From: Clostridia bacterium
GTDB lineage: Bacteria > Bacillota > Clostridia > Peptostreptococcales > JAAYPU01
Direction: 5' to 3'
DNA: 35,315 bases
Assembly (NCBI GenBank): GCA_016278615.1
Contig: JADQBM010000004.1
Location: 1 to 35,315 of the forward strand
Shown here: positions 1 through 33,786 of the stretch, one piece after another
Layout: every line of letters starts with the position of its first letter
Numbering within the stretch: position 1 is the first letter of the stretch
Program-made: the position numbers and the translations under genes
Notes under the pieces: generated by a model
Seen by the model: the letters and a program-made list of their open reading frames with translations, nothing else
What the model was told of the DNA's origin: nothing
Databases searched by the model: none

Positions 1-45
1 TATGAGACCTGCACATCAAATCATAGATTTGAGCTAGGGCTTCAG
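1..45 (-). repeat. Two-hairpin repeat, copy 1 (cut by window edge)
   Basis: This copy aligns without gaps to the repeats at 8883-8965 and 33651-33733. It carries the same conserved ends (TATGAGACCTGC and GCTAGGGCTTCA on the plus strand). Its central stem is CAAATC/GATTTG where the other copies have GTAATC/GATTAC, so base pairing is kept although the bases differ. Only the first hairpin is inside the window; the second would lie beyond position 1. Confidence 0.8.
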
Positions 46-8841: not shown

Positions 8842-8882
8842 TTTACCCTCCACGTTTTAATAAAATAAATTAAGAATTAACC

Positions 8883-8965
8883 GAAAAACTCTTAACCAAT
8901 CAGAGATTGGAGAGTTTCTGTATGAGACCTGCGACGTAATCTTAGATTACTGCTAGGGCTTCAAG
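8883..8965 (-). repeat. Two-hairpin repeat, copy 2, inside the pur operon
   Basis: Full 83-bp copy, the same length as copy 3 and aligned without gaps. Read on the minus strand, hairpin I has the stem GTAATC/GATTAC. Hairpin II has the inner stem CCAATC/GATTGG and an outer stem AACTCT/AGAGTT with a 3-nt bulge, followed by TTTTTC. The second hairpin therefore has the form of a terminator and is transcribed between purN and purH. Confidence 0.85.
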
Positions 8966-27159: not shown

Positions 27160-27343
27160 AATTAAAAATTAAGAATTAAGAATTAAGAGTTAAGGTTGAT
27201 TTTGCTATATAGCAAAATCTTCTAATCAATAAAGAGAAATTATGGCGAAGCCAAATTTCTATCCATAACTATTATCTGTTATCTCTTATCTTTTATCTCG
27301 ACCTTACTTTTACGGGCAGGTGCGAGACCCGCCCCTACATAAC
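27160..27343. repeat. Composite intergenic repeat D (amidohydrolase-glpK gap)
   Basis: The 253-bp gap holds no gene. It contains five heptamers of AATTAAG (27160-27194), a perfect palindrome with arms GATTTTGCTAT/ATAGCAAAATC, a GAAATT...AATTTC hairpin, and four heptamers TTATCTG/C/T/C (27272-27299). The GC-rich inverted repeat ACGGGCAGGTGCGAGACCCG (27312 on) follows. ACTT-rich degenerate repeats continue to about 27395. Confidence 0.8.
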
Positions 27344-27390
27344 TTACCTTTCACTTAAACTTAAGCTTCCACTTATATTTTCACTTCCAC

Positions 27391-29026: not shown

Positions 29027-29254
29027 TTGATTTTGCAATGCTTAAGGCAAAATCTCTTTTGGCAACAATAATTAAAAAGAACAGAAAAACTCCAAATGAA
29101 GATTTTGGCACAAAGTCCTTCCATAACTATTATCTGTTATCTCTTATCTTAGACTTATCCTTAAACTTACACTTACTTTTACGGGCAGGCACGAGACCAG
29201 CCCCTACATACCCTTGCTTTTTACGGGCAGGTGCAAGACCAGCCCCTACATAAC
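29027..29254. repeat. Composite intergenic repeat E (amidohydrolase-response regulator gap)
   Basis: The 539-bp gap at 28987-29525 holds no gene. This part contains a GATTTTGC...GCAAAATC hairpin (29031 on), a second diverged GATTTTG (29101), heptamers TTATCTG, TTATCTC, TTATCTT (29130-29150), and ACTTA-rich degenerate units. Two tandem copies of the GC-rich inverted repeat follow (29181-29210 and 29223-29254). An apparent 79-residue frame here is only translated repeat. The rest of the gap (29255-29525) is the control region of the response regulator. Confidence 0.8.
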
Positions 29255-29354
29255 TTTACTTATCCTTATCCTTAAACTTATGCTCTGTTTTTCTATATTA
29301 TAGCATTTGAGGTTTAGAAGTGTAAGCCTTGGGGTGAAAATTGTAATTCTTTAC

Positions 29355-33534: not shown

Positions 33535-33650
33535 AGGACAACCGCTCCTTTGTAGGTTTCTTGTAAACTTAGTATCTATAGTATATATAATTTGATAAAG
33601 TACTTAAAGCCTTTTCTGTTTTCCATTGAAGCGCGCCTCCCTTTGCCACG

Positions 33651-33733
33651 CTTGAAGCCCTAGCAGTAATCTTTGATTACGTCGCAGGTCTCATACAGCA
33701 ATTCTAAAATCTTTGATTTTATGGGAATTTTTC
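33651..33733 (+). repeat. Two-hairpin repeat, copy 3
   Basis: Full 83-bp copy on the plus strand. Hairpin I has the stem GTAATC/GATTAC with a TTT loop. Hairpin II has inner stem AAAATC/GATTTT and outer stem AATTC/GAATT, and ends in TTTTTC. Against copy 2 the stems of hairpin II change on both sides together. It is antisense to the flanking minus-strand genes alr and TPM. A short sequence ending CTCGCAATGACAAA, similar to that at 10975, follows it. Confidence 0.85.
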
Positions 33734-33750
33734 AGTTCGCTCGCAATGAC

Positions 33751-33786
33751 AAAAAGGGTTTTGCCATTTAATTTGCAAAACCCTTC
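33751..33786 (-). terminator. Terminator of the LemA-TPM operon
   Basis: Minus strand AAGGGTTTTGC...GCAAAACCCTT with a 10-nt loop, followed by TTTGTC. It begins 33 bp after the stop codon of the TPM gene. Confidence 0.85.

Follow-up and report, generated by a model that had tools for sequence, protein, structure and literature searches.

What is the short repeat that occurs three times in the window, the whole 35,315-nt stretch analysed here (contig C95 of a Clostridia genome of 3.5 Mb in 128 contigs), and is its structure maintained in DNA or in RNA? The initial annotation offered two answers, a non-autonomous mobile hairpin and a structured RNA. Sequence comparisons favor the first, and the repeat is probably a mobile double hairpin, mobilized in trans in the form of a folded single strand of DNA.

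The three repeats are real and the two full copies align without a gap, as first described, but their edges have been revised. The unit is 84 bp rather than 83 bp, because its ends were fixed at GAAG...CAGTT by comparison of filled and empty sites and by nested copies. The copies had been placed at 8883-8965, 33651-33733 and 1-45, and their revised positions are given in Table 1 together with their true strands. The two full copies are mutually inverted, with 84% complementarity over 87 nt without gaps. The stems are those originally named. Approximately 25 of the 256 contig ends in this genome fall inside an element copy. The truncation at position 1 is explained by this, and the element also helps to account for the fragmentation of the assembly.

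Table 1. Element copies, their hairpins and the split repeat in the window.
Feature	Position	Strand	Basis and remarks
Full element, 84 bp	8879..8962	-	R1 match, 103.1 bits; purN-purH gap, within an AATTCTT heptamer repeat
Hairpin I of the 8879-8962 copy	8924..8962	-	GTAATC/GATTAC inner stem, GCCCTAGC/GCAGGTC base; A1 alignment and pair counts
Hairpin II of the 8879-8962 copy	8886..8917	-	AACTC/GAGTT outer stem, CCAATC/GATTGG inner stem; pair counts
Full element, 84 bp	33654..33737	+	R1 match, 99.1 bits; between alr and a TPM-domain gene (neighbors by Pfam), antisense to both
Hairpin I of the 33654-33737 copy	33654..33692	+	GTAATC/GATTAC; A1 alignment and pair counts
Hairpin II of the 33654-33737 copy	33699..33730	+	AATTC/GAATT outer stem, AAAATC/GATTTT inner stem; pair counts
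Left half of an older interspersed repeat, TTTGCCACGCTT	33642..33653	+	Uninterrupted near-identical GCCRCGCTNCGCTCGCAATGAC elsewhere in the genome
Right half of the same split repeat, CGCTCGCAATGACA	33738..33751	+	Same uninterrupted genome copies
Cut copy, hairpin I only, CAAATC/GATTTG type	1..43	-	R1 match, 45.7 bits; 3' end missing

The element consists of two hairpins with conserved feet and variable stems. In this genome the layout, after a T, is GAAGCCCTAGC-stem-GCAGGTCTCATRC-AGAAA..stem..TTTTTCAG(TT), or more fully GAAGCCCTAGC - stem - GCAGGTCTCATAC - AGAAAC..stem..GAGTTTTTCAGTT, while in other families the end reads ..TTACTGC(N). Hairpin I has a CCT.GC/GC.AGG base and a variable inner stem, of which there are three main types (GTAATC, CAAATC and CAGAATC) and some rarer ones. 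In hairpin II a bulge of 2-4 nt separates the outer stem from the inner one, and there are three stem types (CCAATC, CTAATC and AAAATC); the types of the two hairpins occur in many combinations. The hairpins differ from each other in sequence and stand in direct order, and neither is an inverted copy of the other.

The stems covary throughout the genome and beyond it. BLAST finds 58 matches to the element in its own genome. A covariance model (R1) built from an alignment (A1) of 24 intact copies from this genome gives 113 matches at E<=1, of which 99 pass E<=0.01, so the whole-genome search and covariation count that had been proposed for this repeat bear it out in both copy number and double changes. 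Among the 24 intact copies, 96.6% of the pair cells are paired and 11 of the 27 stem pairs have two-sided changes. None of 500 shuffled controls reached this level of pairing, and sliding the stem partners lowered it to 28-45%. In 110 distinct copies, double changes occur at 25 of the 27 pairs, with 697 double-change cells compared to a shuffled mean of 195, and the feet, internal loops and linkers are conserved.

The pattern of mismatches points to constraint on DNA. RNA helices tolerate G.U pairs and not A.C pairs. Among 2,843 pair cells of the element there are 28 G.T and 38 A.C mismatches, which are equally rare, while tRNA stems from the same loci have 61 G.T in 759 drawn pairs, a count made with a program that may omit other mismatches. 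Because of this difference from the tRNA stems, the constraint looks to be at the DNA level and not at the RNA level. The copies are intergenic, and relative to the flanking genes 13 are antisense, 6 sense, 5 divergent and 2 convergent. Since G.T does not exceed A.C and the orientations are mixed, pairing matters in the DNA or else the two arms are copied together. It is therefore very improbable that the repeat is a structured RNA (a cis-regulator, terminator or small RNA) under selection on RNA folding. That explanation would account for the strong stem covariation, for a stable RNA fold (z about -3), and for a Streptococcus phage copy that lies just after a T run and directly upstream of a terminase gene. 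However, neither the orientations nor the mismatches agree with it, copies occur in tandem and nested, and no Rfam family matches the element, so the second option of the initial annotation is not supported. With G.T wobble nearly absent, the element is a clean test case for distinguishing covariation at the DNA level from covariation at the RNA level.

Filled and empty sites show that the element inserts cleanly. The base to the left of the element is T in all 39 copies scored in this genome and in 76 of 81 copies elsewhere, with the exceptions mostly at tandem junctions. Filled and empty versions lie side by side without duplication at CCAATCTTTGATTGG and at the GTGGAACTTTCTAATC hairpin, and comparison of the empty site CTCCAATCTTTGATTGG with the filled site CTCCAATCTTT[element]GATTGG shows that no bases were lost or duplicated. 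A 2-bp TT target duplication was considered and ruled out, as copies after CT or AT also end in TT. Insertion of the copy at 33654 has split a different interspersed repeat between GCCACGCTT and CGCTCGCAATGAC, and near-identical unsplit copies of that repeat are present in the genome. The purN-purH gap of two sister genera (G001 and G002) lacks the element, and a second covariance model (R2), built from cross-genome matches, finds none there; this comparison crosses genera, and loss in the sister genera is possible. The proposal that the repeat is a non-autonomous mobile hairpin thus holds up, being supported by the number of copies (about 100), the clean filled and empty pairs, the nested copies, and the orthologous gap that is empty in sister genera. 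The element has jumped around this genome about 100 times, often into its own hairpin loops.

The element inserts into AT heptamer repeats, into hairpin repeats other than itself, and into its own apical loops. In this genome 17 of 39 copies lie in AT heptamer repeats by a simple pattern, and the preference for hairpin loops as judged by folding is weak (9 of 34 versus 18%). Many copies from other genomes sit in the tips of other hairpins, for example between GGGACCAATTT and ATTGGTCC and between GGGGCGATTTT and ATATCGCCC. When each target type there is counted once, 5 of 48 distinct targets are in loops of stems of at least 7 bp, versus 0.8% of control T positions (p=8.5e-5). The GAAG strand of the element is on the C-rich (lagging-type) strand in a ratio of 33:15 (p=0.013, tested after the fact), and for gene strand alone the ratio is 21:12 (p=0.16). 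The bias toward the C-rich strand is a weak hint of insertion linked to replication.

In this genome some copies have another copy inserted in their hairpin II loop. Nesting in the same loop arose independently in a second family (L187 and L199). Tandem arrays of exact unit length are found in C17, C94 and Emergencia, and half-copies such as those at L009, L011 and L054 are compatible with direct repeats having recombined later. A coding role for the array in C28 was rejected, as there are stops in every frame.

A rival reading does without a dedicated enzyme. Copies would spread through slippage during replication and through template switching at forks mediated by hairpins, and the same process would change both arms together by quasipalindrome correction. 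The exact unit length of the arrays, the very small number of single-sided intermediates, and the abundance of short repeats and hairpins in the targets are what this process would produce. At L103 the left arm matches the complement of the right arm exactly, showing that arm correction can happen, and the covariation could come partly from hairpin-templated copying and not from selection. However, the ends and the junction T are exact in unrelated families, distant copies have unrelated flanks, and internal loops and linkers that correction would erase are conserved across orders. Spread by slippage and switching is therefore rather improbable, and the persistence of the bulges in different orders speaks for selection on the imperfect hairpin shape.

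Overall it seems likely that the repeat is a mobile DNA element without genes, made of two imperfect hairpins and read as a folded single strand by a putative trans-acting enzyme. We infer a single-stranded intermediate, an enzyme acting in trans, and selection through recognition. The enzyme would most likely recognize the folded strand, reading the conserved feet, internal loops and linker by sequence and sensing the distal stems solely as paired DNA. It would insert the element on the 3' side of a T, with no duplication of the target, and would favor looped or single-stranded targets such as AT-rich heptamer repeats, the tips of other hairpins in intergenic regions and the loop of hairpin II in the element itself. 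Nested copies may arise in this way and then recombine.

The source of the predicted enzyme was sought near the element and near candidate transposases. No autonomous copy of the element was seen, and the neighboring genes at 67 named loci include no recurrent enzyme family. There are six Y1 transposase genes in this genome, and no copy is next to any of them. Y1 matches were found in 16 of 23 carrier genomes, and no match in the other 7, including one (G611) with at least 11 element copies. No significant match to the element lay within roughly 1.5 kb of any of 32 Y1 loci, 6 from this genome and 26 from carriers (best 18.9 bits, E 0.05), and none of the Y1 loci examined has the element's ends. 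Y2 (IS91-type) matches were found in 3 of 15 carriers, and 12 had none. In Neofamilia massiliensis an IS200-type transposase gene is 190-199 bp from a copy at two loci (L205 and L245), in opposite relative orientations. This transposase was rejected as a parent; it has its own ends, and with the opposite orientations the two are neighbors only.

A narrower form of the preferred reading is that a Y1 (HUH) transposase of the genome moves the repeat as a REPIN-like or IS200/IS605-derived mini-element (PATE). It is suggested by the subterminal imperfect hairpins, by insertion on the 3' side of a fixed base with no duplication of the target, and by the presence of Y1 genes in most carriers, but it is unlikely given that the element flanks none of the Y1 genes, that a copy-rich carrier is among those without a Y1 match, that the hairpins are not mutually inverted, and that the target is a single fixed base and not a tetranucleotide. 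The element works like REPINs or IS200/IS605-derived mini-elements and belongs to neither, because no Y1 gene carries it and 7 of 23 carriers have no Y1 match.

The element resembles several known systems in part. Integron attC sites are recognized by structure as a folded single strand, with a variable terminal stem and a conserved foot and bulges, but the element has two hairpins and no 7-bp core pair, and in the loci read there was no cassette-like layout, nor was an association with an integrase noticed. Cyanobacterial small dispersed repeats are likewise very small and mobile, and are reportedly structured, mutually nested and inserted in short tandem repeats. They are reportedly about 24 bp long rather than 84 bp, and belong to a different phylum. 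Their description by Elhai et al. in 2008 is cited in PMC3116915. PATEs share the subterminal hairpins, the absence of target duplication and the fixed base at the left junction, but their target is a tetra- or pentanucleotide instead of one T, and no IS200/IS605 parent with these ends was found. REP sequences and REPINs, mobilized by RAYT (TnpA-REP), are dispersed intergenic hairpins without genes (PMC3116915, PMC3733652, PMC6006769). Compensatory stem changes, intergenic dispersal, tandem clusters and a likely single-stranded DNA substrate are common to both. The element differs from them in having two unlike hairpins in direct order instead of a GTAG/CGTC-tagged inverted REP pair, in having no RAYT gene flanked by it among the 32 Y1 loci, and in a single architecture that spans two orders. 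Mobile units of two hairpins and tandem insertions are also known from fungi (double-hairpin elements) and sponges (repetitive hairpin elements; PMC2800124), but these are mitochondrial and no shared recognition motif is known.

The two-hairpin architecture is widespread. Of 394 genomes sampled from the order, 57 have it by R1 and R2, and these belong to 36 genera; in a class-level sample the count is 10 of 391 genomes. Carriers include Emergencia timonensis, Peptoniphilus, Urinicoccus, Neofamilia, Anaerococcus MAGs and Tissierella praeacuta, and others are among Tissierellia and Family XIII genomes. Relatives in dozens of related genera have completely different stem sequences and retain the pairing. 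A relative is also present in Streptococcus phages, namely Javan191 (R2 E=2e-9) and four S. constellatus phages, and is a possible route between bacterial classes. In these phages and in two IMG/VR contigs the relative directly follows a T run (L340:601-682; L337:696-776; L338; L339), and in two of the Streptococcus phages a terminase gene is directly downstream. A plasmid search gave no significant match for one form of the element and one partial match for another. A literature search found no description of this double-hairpin family. It is a new family among the small dispersed hairpin repeats of bacteria, unusual in its breadth, in stems that are free in sequence but paired, and in self-nesting. 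More tentatively, it may represent a distinct class of mobile element, a double hairpin recognized by shape and feet, with an enzyme that targets T in loops, recursive nesting, a Clostridia-wide range and phage carriage between classes. The element provides a conserved and apparently still spreading DNA structure with hundreds of copies in dozens of genera to study, and finding its mobilizing enzyme could reveal a recombinase that reads structure.

Copies of the element are also found within larger repeats. In G481 copies occur about every 300 bp in an array that is part of a larger composite repeat (L330:13144-14720), and a longer composite repeat, GGGAGTGCAGAGGGG..AAGGAGGGTGC..GGAACC, holds the element at the same place in several copies (L040, L010, L008, L013 and L117). 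In two complete genomes, G203 (L133 and L143) and G201 (L131 and L142), identical copies recur with identical flanks. The flanks in G203 read into the start of the 16S rRNA gene, and these copies are thus upstream of rRNA operons. Related hairpin modules, GACCTAACAGCAATC..GATTGCGTCGTAGGTCA, AAGTGGAACTC..GAGTTGCCATTCGC and AACGAAACAGAAAT..ATTTCGTCGTTGAGACTG, are chained in arrays (L115:688-930; L088:1501-1579; L105; L089), several of which are directly after or between tRNA genes. The window also has a second dispersed repeat, TACGGGCAGGTGCGAGACCAGCCCCTAC, at 27285-27351 and 29154-29262, and it resembles the GTAGGGGCGAC..GTCGCCC hairpins that are insertion targets in Tissierellia.
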